Shown: one piece after another, positions 664-5,376 of the stretch
How the letters are laid out: each line of letters starts with the position of its first letter
How positions within the stretch are numbered: the stretch's first letter is position 1
Assembly (NCBI RefSeq): GCF_003367315.1
Contig: NZ_CP031415.1
Coordinates: 2,912,001-2,976,000 of the forward strand
Length of the DNA: 64,000 nt
Source of the DNA: Saccharospirillum mangrovi
Lineage (GTDB): Bacteria; Pseudomonadota; Gammaproteobacteria; Pseudomonadales; Natronospirillaceae
Direction of reading: 5' to 3'
The notes under the pieces: generated by a model
Database searches by the model: none
The model's input: only the letters and a program-made list of their open reading frames with translations
Told to the model about the DNA's origin: nothing
Program-made: the position numbers and the translations under genes

Positions 664-1203
664 TTACAGCATCCGCCGGAACAAGCCGTCTTTATCGATC
701 AGGTGTTTCAACGCCGCCCCAATATGGCCGACGATCAACACACCCAAGGTAATTGCAAAGGCACCGTGAATCGCAAACAAACGATTCGCCAAAGCTTCGT
801 CCACAGGCACAAACGGCATGGCCGGCAGGTAATAACCCGCCACAGTAACCAGTGCCGGATACGCCGTAACACCCGCCCAGCCAAGCAAGGGCGTCAACAC
901 CAGCATGACATAGAGCAAGTGATGCAAACTGTGAGCGGCCAATTGCAGGTGACGCGGCAACGTATCCGGATACGCCGGCCCCTTCAGCCAAACCTTCATC
1001 ACCACCCGCACAACCATCAGCAACAGAACCGTAAAGCCGATCAACTTGTGCCAGTTGTACAAGGTGTTAGTCAGCGCCCCCCAAATTCCATGCTCGGCAC
1101 GTTCGGCCATCGTTATGCCAATGGGTATTAATGCGAAAATCATCAGCGCCATAAGCCAGTGCAACAATCGCCAGGCAAGCGGGTATTTTTGAATTTGGGT
1201 CAT
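664..1203 (-). CDS. Cytochrome b561 family protein
   Basis: A 179-residue integral membrane protein of the bacterial CybB/cytochrome b561 type, which carries two b-type haems and passes electrons between quinol and acceptors in the cytoplasmic membrane. Four transmembrane segments are visible (around LLHWLMALMIFALIPIG, LIGFTVLLLMVVRVVM, LLYVMLVLTPLLGW and FAITLGVLIVGHIGAAL). Candidate haem-ligand His residues lie in LLHW near the N-terminus, NWHKL, HSLHH and the final GHIGA helix. Length is normal for the family. The ATG at 1203 faces the A+T-rich island, so this gene and the RT block are transcribed divergently. The exact physiological partner cannot be told from sequence. Confidence 0.85.
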   Translation of the reverse strand: MTQIQKYPLAWRLLHWLMALMIFALIPIGITMAERAEHGIWGALTNTLYNWHKLIGFTVLLLMVVRVVMKVWLKGPAYPDTLPRHLQLAAHSLHHLLYVMLVLTPLLGWAGVTAYPALVTVAGYYLPAMPFVPVDEALANRLFAIHGAFAITLGVLIVGHIGAALKHLIDKDGLFRRML

Positions 1204-1420
1204 TGGTTCTTTTCCTTAGCACGGTTTTAAAAGAGGGGATTCCCTACCTGGAGCGCATCATAGAGATTATTTTTGTGGGGGGCTATCTTAAGGGGTTAGG
1301 GGTATTAGTTATGGGTTGGTCTATACCGAATTACTCACAACCACTTGTTGCGAGTTTATTAATAATAAAAAAGGCACCACAGTACTAGCGAAGAAGGCAA
1401 TAGGTGGATTATTCATTCGC
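1204..1420. other. A+T-rich spacer, left edge of the RT island
   Basis: No gene is supported here. Base composition falls sharply from the GC-rich flank to runs such as a TTATTAATAATAAAA-like stretch near 1356-1372, which could supply a promoter for the downstream RNA/RT unit (inference). I looked for a copy of the tRNA-Ile2 3' end that would mark the other side of an integrated element and did not find one. Confidence 0.5.
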
Positions 1421-1612
1421 AGAGAAAGCCTAGCTTTTCGGGCTTTTCATATCGTGAAAGACAAGCTGTCTTCGTTTGGTGAGGAAATGAAACGATTGCT
1501 GGGCATACTGTCTGTTGAACATACGGCGGTCATACAGACGCGGTTTCAAGAGTGGTCGCTTTCGCCAGCGGGAGGAGTGCCTCGGAGTACTGGCAATAAC
1601 TGTACGGCGACC
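1421..1612 (+). ncRNA. Candidate structured RNA upstream of drt3a
   Basis: About 190 bases directly in front of the first RT gene can fold into consecutive hairpins: AAAGCC/GGCTTT (1425-1430 with 1441-1446); AAGACA/TGTCTT (1458-1463 with 1467-1472, 3-base loop); CGTTT/AAACG (1473-1477 with 1490-1494); GTCTGT/ACAGAC (1510-1515 with 1534-1539). A nested domain follows: GGTCGC/GCGACC (1554-1559 with 1607-1612) encloses GCCAG/CTGGC (1564-1568 with 1590-1594), which encloses GAGG/CCTC (1572-1575 with 1580-1583). It is more GC-rich than the RT genes and no protein is supported across it. Several DRT types carry a structured RNA next to the RT gene (family knowledge). It could instead be a long structured 5' leader. 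The pairings were found by eye, without an energy calculation. Confidence 0.45.
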
Positions 1613-1664
1613 TAGTATAAGAGCTACACTAAAATCACATTTCATAAAGAAATGGGTAAACCTG

Positions 1665-2864
1665 ATGTTAGATCAAACCATTTCAAAGAGCTCTCTACGT
1701 AGCCACTGTTCTGCTGCGGACATATATAATTTCAAATTAGGGTGGAGCCTAGATGAACAGCTAGATTCATTAGAAGGCATCGCAAACAATATCAATAGCA
1801 ACGAATTCAAGTTTTCAAATTTCAAGTCGTTCTCAAGAAACGGCAAGGTAGTTTATAAGCCAGTAAAAGCTGAAGATTACTTTGCAGTAAAAATTGCAAA
1901 TCACCACTTAAAAAAAATATTTTCAGTAAAGCAAAGCGACCGACAAACACTCGTTAAACAACTAAAAATCCTTCTCCAGGAAAACACCCCTTTTAAACTG
2001 ATAAAAATAGACATTAAATCATTCTATGAAACCATTCCGGTAGAGAAATTACTTAAAGCGTGCTGGGACGACCCAATTTTATCTTATAAAACAAAAGAAA
2101 TTATCGAACTTCTTTTCAATACCGAACAATTCAAAAAAGCAAACGGACTTCCAAGAGGACTTTCGATCAGTTCAACATTATCAGAATACTACCTAAAAGA
2201 TCTAGACAAGTTTATCAGAGAGCTCAGCGGAGTGTATTACTCGGCCAGGTATGTTGATGATATAATAGTACTCTGCACTCCATCTGAGATGGATCACAAG
2301 GAAAAAATAATTGAGTTCATAAAAGGTATTGAACTAAAAATAAACGAGTTCAAAACAAAACAGCTGAATAACAAAGTCGGCATTGAACCTTTTATAGTGG
2401 AGTTCTTAGGGTATCAATTCAAGAATGAAGGGCGAAATGTAAATGTAACTATCGCAGAAAAAAAGATCAAAAAAATAAAAACACGAATCACGCTGGCATT
2501 TATTTCATTCACCAAATCAAAAAACTATAATCTATTAGAGAAAAGGATTAAATTTCTCACCGGGAACTTCAAATTAGATAGCAGATCAAAAGTAAGCGGG
2601 GATTCACTAAAAGGCGGCATCTTCTATAATTTTTCAGAAATCCCAGAAAACTGCGAATCCCTAATTGAACTTGATGACTACCTTAAGCGTATCACTCTCT
2701 CAAAAAAAGGCGCATTGGGGGAGAAAATAAACTCGTTATTAAATAATCCCATTCGAAGAAAATTGTTAAGACACTCTTTTCAGAAGGGCTTTAAAAACAG
2801 AGTCTGTCACAATTTCAACTATAAAGAAGTCGCAGAAATAAAGGCGTGCTGGATAAATGAGTAA
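1665..2864 (+). CDS. drt3a: Defence reverse transcriptase, Drt3a-like (UG3 type)
   Basis: A 399-residue reverse transcriptase. Motif A is KIDIKSFYETI (catalytic Asp about residue 116), motif B is GLPRGLSISSTLSE (161-174), motif C is YVDD (196-199) and a motif E-like FLGYQF lies at 247-252, so the polymerase core looks intact. About 145 residues follow with no recognised domain. Known family: anti-phage DRT type 3 systems consist of two different RTs in one operon (unknown groups UG3 and UG8) plus a non-coding RNA, which is the arrangement seen here. The ATG at 1665 is preferred to the ATG at 1515: the longer start would put 50 basic residues over the structured upstream region. Its 3' end overlaps drt3b by 8 bases, so translation is probably coupled. 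Very A+T-rich codon use, unlike the flanks, suggests horizontal transfer. The two-RT layout and motifs support the DRT3 call; no database comparison was possible. Confidence 0.72.
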   Translation: MLDQTISKSSLRSHCSAADIYNFKLGWSLDEQLDSLEGIANNINSNEFKFSNFKSFSRNGKVVYKPVKAEDYFAVKIANHHLKKIFSVKQSDRQTLVKQLKILLQENTPFKLIKIDIKSFYETIPVEKLLKACWDDPILSYKTKEIIELLFNTEQFKKANGLPRGLSISSTLSEYYLKDLDKFIRELSGVYYSARYVDDIIVLCTPSEMDHKEKIIEFIKGIELKINEFKTKQLNNKVGIEPFIVEFLGYQFKNEGRNVNVTIAEKKIKKIKTRITLAFISFTKSKNYNLLEKRIKFLTGNFKLDSRSKVSGDSLKGGIFYNFSEIPENCESLIELDDYLKRITLSKKGALGEKINSLLNNPIRRKLLRHSFQKGFKNRVCHNFNYKEVAEIKACWINE

Positions 2865-4845
2865 AATAAAAAAAGTAAGGCGCAGCGATACAAATAGGAT
2901 TCTTTTAACGGAAACGCTCCCCTACGAAGTTCCAATATTATTTTCAAATGATAATTTTTATTTATTAGTAAAAAATGGAAAATTGAACAAGCAACATAGC
3001 TGCTTTAGCTCCATTGTAAAATCCAAACATGAAACTCAACCATATAATTATAAAATCAAAAAAAACATAGACTCTAGCAGGACGATCAGTATTCCTCACC
3101 CTTCAATTCAATACCAATTTATTGATTTTTATGAGTCCTATGATTCTATAATCACCTCACTATGCAGCAGAAGTGCTGCATCACTAAGAGCGCCGACAAA
3201 AGTAGCATCCCATTTTTCCGAAAAAAACTCGACACTTAAGTACAAAAAAATCCTAAGAGATGACCTTGTAGAAACTAAAGAACACGCACAAAGCAAAGAA
3301 AGCCAACACGCTTCTTCGTATTTCCAGTACAGCGACTTTCCATTACTGTACATGTTTTATGAGTCATATCAGTTTCAACGCCTGGAACGACAATACCCAT
3401 ACTTTTTAAAATTCGATATTTTTAAATGCTTCCAAAGCATCTACACACACTCATTAACATGGGCAGTTAAAGAAAAAAAATTCGCCAAAGCTCATCGCTC
3501 TGCAATAACAAGCACTTCATTCGAGGGTAAGTTTGATCGCCTCATGCAAATGGGTAATCACGGTGAAACAAATGGGATTATTGTAGGGCCAGAGTTTTCT
3601 AGAATATTTTCTGAAATCATACTCCAAAGAGTGGATGAAAACGGGAAAAAGCAATTAAAAAAATCGGGCATTAAAAGCTTTAAAATTCGGCGGTATGTTG
3701 ACGATTATTTTGTTTTCTGTCACTCAGAGACCGATGCTTACAAAATTATGGAGGCCTATCGAGAAGAATTAGAGAAATTCAACCTACATATAAATGAAGC
3801 AAAGATTGACCTGATAAAGAGGCCATTTATAACGAACGAATCAATAGCAAAGCTGGAAGCAAAGCTACTTGCGATAGAGCTATTTGAAAACTACATAATT
3901 TCACCGTCAAAAAGCGACGAATTAAATGCAATCGATAGTTTAGTCAAAGAAAACAAAAAACTTATCAAACTTGATCTCAGCTATATATCAAAGTACAAAG
4001 CAATCGCCAAATCTAACAGCGTCACCTATGAATCTATTACGAATATATTTTTGTCTGTCCTTAGAAACAACCTTGTAGATTTAAACGAGAAATTAGCAAG
4101 TGACAAAGCGAACGCTGATGACAAAAAAATCTTCACATACATAAAATCATTAGTGACAATAGCATTCTATTGCTTTTCGATGGACATGAGATATCGACCA
4201 AGTTATCTAGTTTGCCAAATATCAATCGTCATTATGTCTATAGCAGAAAAAATGCCAGAAAATTTTAATGAAGGAATAAAGAAGACATTATCCGATGAAA
4301 TTTTGCTATCACTAAGAAATTCTCAGTTCAATAACAAAACAATTCCGCAAGAGTTGTTGAACTTATTAATTCTTCATAAAGAACTTGGCAGAAAATACAA
4401 ATTCAAAGATGAGGTTTTGTACACTCTGATCCCTAGCCTAGTTGAAGGTAGCCCTGGCGACATAGACTACTTCACTGCTTTTACGACGATACACTACATT
4501 GAGGAAGACAAATCGACGATAAAAAGCACAATCGAATCAAAAATAATAGATAGGTTTAATAAAGAAACAAAACCTCTAGACAATACAGAGCTGTTTTTGT
4601 TTTTCGTAGATAGCTTTTCATGCCCATACTTATCAGGGTCGATGAAATCTACTCTAATGGATCAAATGAAAATAAAGCACATGTCACGTGACATAACTTC
4701 CGAGGAAAAACCAATCATTGCGGCTCAAATCAGACGTTTCTTAGAAAAGAAGCATTGGTTCTTTAGCTGGAATAATGAAAAACAAGTGTTCTTCAATCTT
4801 ACAAAGAAGGAAATGCGAGCACCTGCGTTGATCAAAAGCTACTAA
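2857..4845 (+). CDS. drt3b: Defence reverse transcriptase, Drt3b-like (UG8 type)
   Basis: A 662-residue second reverse transcriptase, overlapping drt3a by 8 bases. Motif A is FDIFKCFQSIYTHSL (Asp at 187). Motif B is a divergent NGIIVGPEFSRIFSEI (239-254), without the PQG-like core of retroviral or retron RTs. Motif C is YVDD (280-283), followed by a motif D-like HINEAK at 311-316. The ~330 residues after the core are mostly predicted helix with no recognised domain, as in Abi-type RTs. In DRT3 the larger partner is the UG8 enzyme; recent work, as I recall it, reports that Drt3a copies an ACACAC element of the RNA while Drt3b makes the complementary strand without a nucleic-acid template. I could not identify the residues responsible for that in this protein. 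A+T-rich codon use matches drt3a. Confidence 0.7.
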   Translation: MSKIKKVRRSDTNRILLTETLPYEVPILFSNDNFYLLVKNGKLNKQHSCFSSIVKSKHETQPYNYKIKKNIDSSRTISIPHPSIQYQFIDFYESYDSIITSLCSRSAASLRAPTKVASHFSEKNSTLKYKKILRDDLVETKEHAQSKESQHASSYFQYSDFPLLYMFYESYQFQRLERQYPYFLKFDIFKCFQSIYTHSLTWAVKEKKFAKAHRSAITSTSFEGKFDRLMQMGNHGETNGIIVGPEFSRIFSEIILQRVDENGKKQLKKSGIKSFKIRRYVDDYFVFCHSETDAYKIMEAYREELEKFNLHINEAKIDLIKRPFITNESIAKLEAKLLAIELFENYIISPSKSDELNAIDSLVKENKKLIKLDLSYISKYKAIAKSNSVTYESITNIFLSVLRNNLVDLNEKLASDKANADDKKIFTYIKSLVTIAFYCFSMDMRYRPSYLVCQISIVIMSIAEKMPENFNEGIKKTLSDEILLSLRNSQFNNKTIPQELLNLLILHKELGRKYKFKDEVLYTLIPSLVEGSPGDIDYFTAFTTIHYIEEDKSTIKSTIESKIIDRFNKETKPLDNTELFLFFVDSFSCPYLSGSMKSTLMDQMKIKHMSRDITSEEKPIIAAQIRRFLEKKHWFFSWNNEKQVFFNLTKKEMRAPALIKSY

Positions 4846-4850
4846 TAAAC

Positions 4851-5100
4851 TACTGTGCATATGCTGTGCTGCGTCTGCCAGCATCTCATGGCTGAACTAG
4901 CGCCTTGTGATGCACTGAAACACTAACCTAGATAATAGGTAAGAATCCCTTTGAGTTCTTTAGTAATTAGACTAGCCCACCGGGTTACTCTGATTCCTGC
5001 AGGTACCTTTAGAACGACAAGGTTACACACGAAGCAGCACAGCACTAATACTCATAATTGGCAATGCAAAGACAGCATTTCCAGCTCAACCGAGCTCATC
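4851..5100 (+). ncRNA. Candidate DRT3 RNA with ACACAC element
   Basis: The 355 bases between drt3b and the tRNA hold no supported protein. A long-range helix of 11 contiguous pairs joins 4862-4872 to 5034-5044, extended by 4874-4875 with 5031-5032 after one mismatch. Just inside its 3' strand lies ACACAC (5025-5030), and just before that a hairpin ACCTT/AAGGT (5005-5009 with 5019-5023), so the ACACAC would be a short single-stranded stretch between two helices. Further hairpins inside the domain: ACCTA/TAGGT (4926-4930 with 4936-4940) and AGCCC/GGGTT (4974-4978 with 4982-4986). Beyond it: AATGC/GCATT (5063-5067 with 5075-5079) and AGCTC/GAGCT (5083-5087 with 5092-5096). This is what a template region in an RT-bound RNA would look like. 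Ends are guesses and transcription is unproven. A competing local stem 4861-4866/4879-4884 exists. Confidence 0.5.
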
Positions 5101-5200
5101 AAGCTTGTAAACATTCCAATCCTTCAGTAGCACATTGGTAGCACAGTACACTTAGAGAATCTCAGCCAAAATTTAAGACCTCTCTAGAATGGGCCTTTCA

Positions 5201-5277
5201 TGGTGGGCCCAGCTGGACTTGAACCAGCGACCAATCGATTATGAGTCGACTGCTCTAACCAACTGAGCTATGGGCCC
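5201..5277 (-). tRNA. ileX: tRNA-Ile2 (CAU anticodon)
   Basis: The minus strand folds into a full cloverleaf with CCA encoded (5201-5203). The acceptor stem is GGGCCCA with TGGGCCC. The anticodon arm GTCGA-CTCATAA-TCGAT exposes CAT. The T arm GCTGG-TTCAAGT-CCAGC is followed by a discriminator A. The CAT anticodon fits initiator Met, elongator Met or Ile2. The GACTCATAATCG anticodon region followed by TTGGTCGCTGG and TTCAAGTCC closely resembles E. coli tRNA-Ile2, whose C34 is changed to lysidine by TilS to read AUA; it differs from elongator tRNA-Met. The 3' end abuts the A+T-rich RT island, the usual side for tRNA-targeted integration. Confidence 0.93.
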
Positions 5278-5376
5278 TTTGAGGTCAGCCAGCGAACGCT
5301 GGTCTGAATTTGAAGGGCGGCATTATAACGTGGCGGGTTGGTAAGTCTAGGTTTGGGGATGGCGGTTTGGGGAGTT

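Follow-up and report, generated by a model that had tools for sequence, protein, structure and literature searches.

The 64,000-nucleotide (nt) stretch of DNA analysed here (the window; Saccharospirillum mangrovi, NCBI RefSeq assembly GCF_003367315.1, contig NZ_CP031415.1, positions 2,912,001 to 2,976,000 of the forward strand) carries a pair of reverse transcriptase (RT) genes followed by a probable non-coding RNA (ncRNA), and this locus is a new, divergent member of DRT3, a system class that is already known. It is very probable that it is a DRT3 (UG3 + UG8) anti-phage system working by the mechanism described in 2026, as laid out in the passages used of PMC13174585 and of the review PMC13314766. 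An original prediction, made from the sequence alone, had proposed a DRT3-like operon of two RTs from 1665 to 4845, and both RTs are indeed adjacent and above the curated Drt3a and Drt3b cut-offs; the locus also reaches past 4845, as the RNA element continues to about 5050. Its features, in window coordinates, are as follows, EcoDRT3 being the E. coli system of reference (Wang et al. 2026, PMC13174585):

1665 to 2864, plus strand: drt3a, UG3 RT of 399 amino acids, predicted RNA-templated partner
2250 to 2261, plus strand: YVDD catalytic motif of Drt3a
2857 to 4845, plus strand: drt3b, UG8 RT of 662 amino acids, predicted protein-templated partner
2926 to 2928, plus strand: codon of Drt3b E24, equivalent to EcoDRT3b E22
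3601 to 3603, plus strand: codon of Drt3b R249, equivalent to EcoDRT3b R241
3694 to 3705, plus strand: YVDD catalytic motif of Drt3b
4840 to 4842, plus strand: codon of Drt3b Y662, the last residue and presumed priming tyrosine
about 4855 to 5050, plus strand: probable DRT3 ncRNA
4862 to 4872, plus strand: 5' arm of the closing stem of the ncRNA
5025 to 5030, plus strand: ACACAC, putative ncRNA template from which poly-GT would be made
5034 to 5044, plus strand: 3' arm of the closing stem of the ncRNA

The open reading frames of the two RTs overlap by 8 bases (2857-2864), and an overlap of the same length occurs in the annotated genes of four comparison loci (L006, L008, L010 and L026). The start of drt3a was taken as the ATG matching position 1 of the hidden Markov model (HMM); a TTG upstream, at 1515, would give 449 amino acids. 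Each protein retains, besides YVDD, the motif A aspartate (D116 in Drt3a and D187 in Drt3b), so the catalytic motifs are intact, as had been claimed. Other traits named by the original prediction were found as well, namely an A+T-rich block foreign to the chromosome (GC content of 0.347 in each RT gene versus 0.577 over 5278-64000), a divergent motif B in the second protein (NGIIVGPEFSRIF, as read by eye) and a helical C-terminal region, the C-terminal half of Drt3b being predicted as helical in the AlphaFold2 model (predicted local distance difference test (pLDDT) of 80.9 and predicted template modelling score (pTM) of 0.84, from 18 rows). Regarding the statement that the system is self-contained without a neighbouring defence gene, none of the five flanking proteins matches the PADLOC defence models, and that part stands; however, published DRT3 requires a downstream ncRNA, which had not been listed and was found here.

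The first RT scores 370.1 bits with the NCBIfam equivalog NF041747 (Drt3a, cut-off 200), and the second 585.7 bits with NF041748 (Drt3b, cut-off 350). In PADLOC, Drt3a is the top family for the first protein with 449 bits, followed by RT_UG17 with 125.7 bits among the best 25 of 40 families, and Drt3b is the top family for the second with 671.6 bits, followed by Drt6 with 167.6 bits among the best 25 of 32 families (models PDLC02174, E 4.5e-135, and PDLC02176, E 3.3e-202). A best match to retron, group II intron or CRISPR RTs had been named as the result that would overturn the proposal. Both proteins fall instead in UG3 and UG8, and the proposal withstands the comparison because those models score far lower: the group II intron maturase model gives 72.5 bits with Drt3a and 49.0 bits with Drt3b, both below its cut-off of 300, and retron and CRISPR RT profiles give at most 61 bits among the PADLOC matches listed. 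The best PDB sequence matches are proteins of solved DRT3 structures, 26cz (E 2.7e-117 with Drt3b) and 9z6y (E 4.1e-37 with Drt3a and, in a near full-length alignment, E 1.9e-78 with Drt3b). According to passages of the 2021 classification, about 97% of UG3 RTs adjoin a UG8 RT (PMC8934634). Since PADLOC, NCBIfam, the PDB matches and the UG3/UG8 pairing agree, the DRT3 interpretation stands. As for the divergence of this member, the identity of Drt3b to any relative found is at most 39% (the top being L024, with 38.7% over 617 positions), and its position in the Drt3b tree is not resolved, the nearest sequence by path being L025.

The comparison set comprised 30 loci, 7 of them on plasmids, 4 on E. 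coli chromosomes and 1 and 18 in further genomes, sampling 8 of 170 matching plasmid records and 4 of 22 matching E. coli records, plus 23 loci on viral contigs, which were found by a scan with an alignment, a scan with a single sequence having given no match. Before the count of 31 loci, window included, L009 (Drt3b split into two hypothetical proteins) and the window copies L002, L003 and L013 were dropped. Many loci are near-copies (L061/L063/L064, L062/L078, L057/L079, L051/L052, L026/L027 and L025/L058), and the 51 loci counted for the RNA below are therefore fewer independent cases.

In the 31-row alignments, the motif A aspartates are invariant, as are R195, D198 and D199 around the Drt3a YVDD motif, with V197 nearly so; in Drt3b, Y280, D282 and D283 occur in 31/31 rows and V281 in 30/31. 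Passages of PMC13174585 describe E22, R71 and R241 of EcoDRT3b as the protein template residues, E22 being the dATP gate and R241 the dCTP switch. The equivalents in the window are E24, in a column of 25 E and 6 D, R75, in a column of 30 R and 1 N, and R249, which is Arg in all 31 rows, so that the protein-template residues are kept in the window Drt3b, with roles transferred from the same source. Further equivalents in EcoDRT3b numbering, read through L025, are D187 (D182) and F192 (F187).

Regarding the RNA, passages of PMC13174585 state that the DRT3 ncRNA is encoded downstream of drt3b, that poly(dTdG) is copied from its 5'-ACACAC-3' loop and that mutation of ACACAC abolishes defence. In the window, the region 4846-5060 folds with -64.4 kcal/mol (z -3.60; 0/200 shuffles as low), and the arms of the closing stem form 11 perfect pairs, the 3' arm starting 3 nt behind the hexamer. 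Within 450 nt past the end of drt3b, ACACAC is found in 31/31 loci, window counted, and in 20/20 viral-contig loci with an intact drt3b end; these counts leave out L071, L074 and L077, where Drt3b ends early and no ACACAC stands behind the early stop, and keep L024, which has a frameshifted end. Within 240 nt from the stop, it occurs in 49/51 loci and is the commonest of the 4096 hexamers, the commonest one outside CA runs reaching 18/51. As controls, the hexamer was present in 0/17 stretches covering the 240 nt before drt3a (17 of 23 loci had sufficient sequence there) and in 3/50 stretches of 160 nt lying 290-450 nt behind the gene. When the sequence before the template was paired with the 30 nt after it and compared with 300 shuffles, the duplex of the window was equalled by 3/300, and 15/31 loci, window included, were at or below 15/300, with unrelated arm sequences. 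The fold, and the place and hexamer shared with 50 other loci, indicate that the structured RNA with ACACAC behind drt3b is probably the DRT3 ncRNA, which would be transcribed as in the published E. coli systems.

By analogy with those systems, Drt3a together with the downstream ncRNA would copy ACACAC repeatedly into poly(dT-dG), and Drt3b would act as a protein-primed polymerase, starting on its C-terminal tyrosine and alternating dC and dA to give poly(AC), with E24, R75 and R249 selecting the nucleotide in place of a template strand. Poly(TG) and poly(CA) would then anneal into a repetitive duplex DNA, normally degraded by RecBCD; a phage that blocks RecBCD, or another trigger, would let this product accumulate, and the infected cell would stop growing (abortive infection). 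RecC is present in the same genome, with 820.7 bits (cut-off 582.9), and passages of PMC13174585 state that DRT3 becomes toxic in E. coli when RecBCD is lost. In the 31 loci read for both, the RNA template is found in 31/31, E or D at the first gate in 31/31, and arginine in the R241 column in 31/31 and in the R71 column in 30/31; this joint retention of RNA template and protein gates fits the need for complementary strands.

Several observations weigh against the locus acting as a DRT3 system, concerning the tail of Drt3b, the RNA and the promoters of the region. EcoDRT3b initiates DNA on Y666 (passages of PMC13174585), and in the alignment this column holds Ala657 in the window Drt3b, whose final Y662 lies 5 residues beyond. 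The spacing between a conserved Trp and the tyrosine is 24 in the window, and each of the 49 other intact tails falls at 18-20. Among the 53 other sequences, 45 were measured by a pattern and 4 by eye; the latter are L021 (19), L054 (18) and L076 (18), for which the pattern chose an incorrect Trp, and L059 (18), which it did not pick up. L024, L071, L074 and L077 lack a normal end. In addition, residues 657-662 are not placed by AlphaFold2 (pLDDT below 50). A degraded or weakened DRT3, whose altered tail blocks or impairs protein priming, so that no poly(CA) is made and defence is lost, would agree with a window standing alone among 50 intact tails and with the alanine in the Y666 column, and such decay exists in the family (frameshifted Drt3b end in L024, early stops in L071, L074 and L077). 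However, neither reading frame is interrupted along its length, the catalytic and gate residues otherwise checked are kept, the last residue is still a tyrosine and the ACACAC template is intact, making this explanation unlikely. Because Y662 is displaced and 657-662 are unplaced in the model, the primer tyrosine may be carried by a longer tether; alternatively, priming may be compromised. In a tentative reading, judged less likely than not, Drt3b could prime from a tyrosine whose tail exceeds that of EcoDRT3b by 5 residues and is also longer than the tail of each of the 49 other intact homologues, the tyrosine reaching the active site via a flexible tether and not by a fixed geometry. If true, considered with the constant ACACAC and the E/D and R gates, the product sequence of DRT3 would be evolutionarily locked and the initiation step free to vary. 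A comparable tail variant was not found in the passages of PMC13174585 on Y666 and the C-terminal tail.

As to the RNA, the closing stem is non-significant in 16/31 loci, including the E. coli type L025 (239/300 shuffles as good), and sigma-70-like promoters in 1200-5300 are not in excess, with 8 sites versus a shuffle mean of 11.5. Another candidate, a hairpin immediately before the template on its 5' side, was at or below 15/300 shuffles in 4/51 loci and at 59/300 in the window; it is not claimed, because the shuffles were not beaten, though it is convincing by eye in several loci. A rival reading, in which the RNA element is something other than the DRT3 ncRNA, the ACACAC of the window being a chance match and the true RNA lying elsewhere or missing, would be in line with the hexamer turning up in 13% of the dinucleotide shuffles made from the corresponding 240 nt in the window and with the lack of any Rfam family at gathering threshold in the ncRNA region; the hexamer behind drt3b in 51/51 counted loci, the fold and the perfect stem just behind it speak against chance and make it highly improbable. 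Equally improbable is a co-option of the two RTs for a task other than defence, such as regulatory or repair DNA synthesis, given the matches at equivalog level to two established defence proteins, the other genes held by this site in sister genomes and a patchy occurrence, with Drt3b matches in 1/22 genomes of the family and 9/390 of the order (own genome counted).

The preferred reading, a working DRT3, can be set beside the systems already described. With EcoDRT3, as presented in passages of Wang et al. 2026 (PMC13174585), the window shares the order drt3a-drt3b-ncRNA, the ACACAC template, YVDD in both RTs, the E22/R71/R241 gates, a helical C-terminal half and a C-terminal tyrosine. Within the locus set, the near relatives of EcoDRT3 are L025 and L058; the Drt3b of L025 is 36% identical to that of the window, whose tail exceeds that of EcoDRT3b by 5 residues, and the RT genes of L025 lie 3 bases apart, compared to the overlap in the window. 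Moreover, L025 is accompanied by satellite-type genes of the P4 type, with ogr/Delta-like and polarity suppression as their annotations, and by a tyrosine integrase, whereas no integrase was seen alongside the window locus. PDB 26cz is taken to be the Drt3b of EcoDRT3, from matching residue numbers. The entries 9z6y/9z6z (named Drt3a and Drt3b by the depositors), presumably the structure of Deng et al. 2026, likewise hold two RTs; this DRT3 is distant in sequence from the window, and the printed part of its Drt3b tail resembles L061/L063/L064.

The Class 1 UG RTs DRT4/UG15, DRT6, AbiK and Abi-P2 are one-RT systems. Their fold is like that of the modelled window Drt3b (Foldseek ranks 1-16), and they are also its second-best profile matches, with scores about 4 times lower or less; no DRT3 entry was among the 50 matches listed by Foldseek against the PDB (to April 2026). 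DRT10, for its part, has a single RT. In DRT10 and telomerase a short RNA template is copied repeatedly, as in DRT3, according to the comparison in passages of PMC13174585, but in DRT3 the complementary strand is made by a second RT. DRT3 is among the strangest known polymerase systems, with DNA synthesis on a protein template, and a divergent member that comes from a different bacterial group, and that retains the RTs, RNA template and gates while its primer tail has changed, can serve as a natural experiment on which elements of the published mechanism are indispensable. What the window copy adds is the RNA element, the conservation of this RNA and the longer primer tail.

Two layouts of the ncRNA can be distinguished from the sequences. 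Counted from the first base of the drt3b stop codon, the template lies at 27-264 nt overall, and at 182 nt in the window. One Drt3b clade (15 rows on one starred branch of the tree, which was built without L024, L063, L064, L071, L074, L077, L078 and L079) has it only 27-70 nt from the stop codon, and is read as a second layout; its members are L011, L012, L020-L023, L026, L027, L048-L050, L066, L070, L073 and L075. In the other 36 loci the distance is 94-264 nt, except for L017, L018 and L053 (66-76). Several loci of the short-layout clade have a GGCTG-NNNN-CAGCC hairpin just before ACACAC, not above shuffles at the threshold used. The published covariance model of the DRT3 ncRNA was built from EcoDRT3 and close relatives, as stated in passages of PMC13174585.

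The block is inserted beside a tRNA gene:

5201 to 5277, minus strand: tRNA-Met (CAT)

Homology with the nearest sister genome stops at window positions 1369 and 5200. In two of the five other genomes of the genus (G017 and G018), tRNA-Met and cytochrome b561 lie close together on one contig with differing cargo, the junction not being readable in the stretches compared from the remaining three. At this junction, L041 (1026-13279) carries about 12 kb of cargo with a 1705-amino-acid repeat protein and an OmpA-type protein, and L042 (4395-5829) a YdjM-type gene. Because sister genomes carry other cargo and homology stops at both edges, the site of the DRT3 block, at the 3' end of the tRNA gene, is a variable one. 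No integrase-like open reading frame was seen by eye in the block, no family search having been aimed at integrases, and a repeat of the tRNA end as attachment site was not found near the left edge (1150-1700) at 9 or more bases. The flanking proteins, according to NCBIfam and Pfam, are MdoH (cut by the window edge and below cut-off), cytochrome b561, an OsmC-like protein (below cut-off), OsmC/YcaO and a phosphoenolpyruvate (PEP)-phosphotransferase. Beyond the family and order, Drt3b matches were present in 2/369 genomes of a sample drawn from the class and in 2/398 from the phylum, own genome counted.

The same genome holds a second RT system, a retron of type III-A (C1:636264-639896; L001 138-2418), with an RT matching RT_III-A in PADLOC (E 2.2e-169) and, just upstream, a phosphoribosyltransferase-like partner (PRTase_III-A, E 2.9e-96).

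In E. coli CFSAN064035 (L024 3460-5499), Drt3b ends differently, and the sequence for the customary KKELRTAYE terminus is out of frame; the priming tyrosine is therefore lost in that allele. Another 11 listed E. coli records (H42-H52) have the same match position and identity as L024. The early ends of the Drt3b reading frame in the viral-contig loci L071, L074 and L077, and its split in the E. coli plasmid L009, suggest repeated loss of the second RT.

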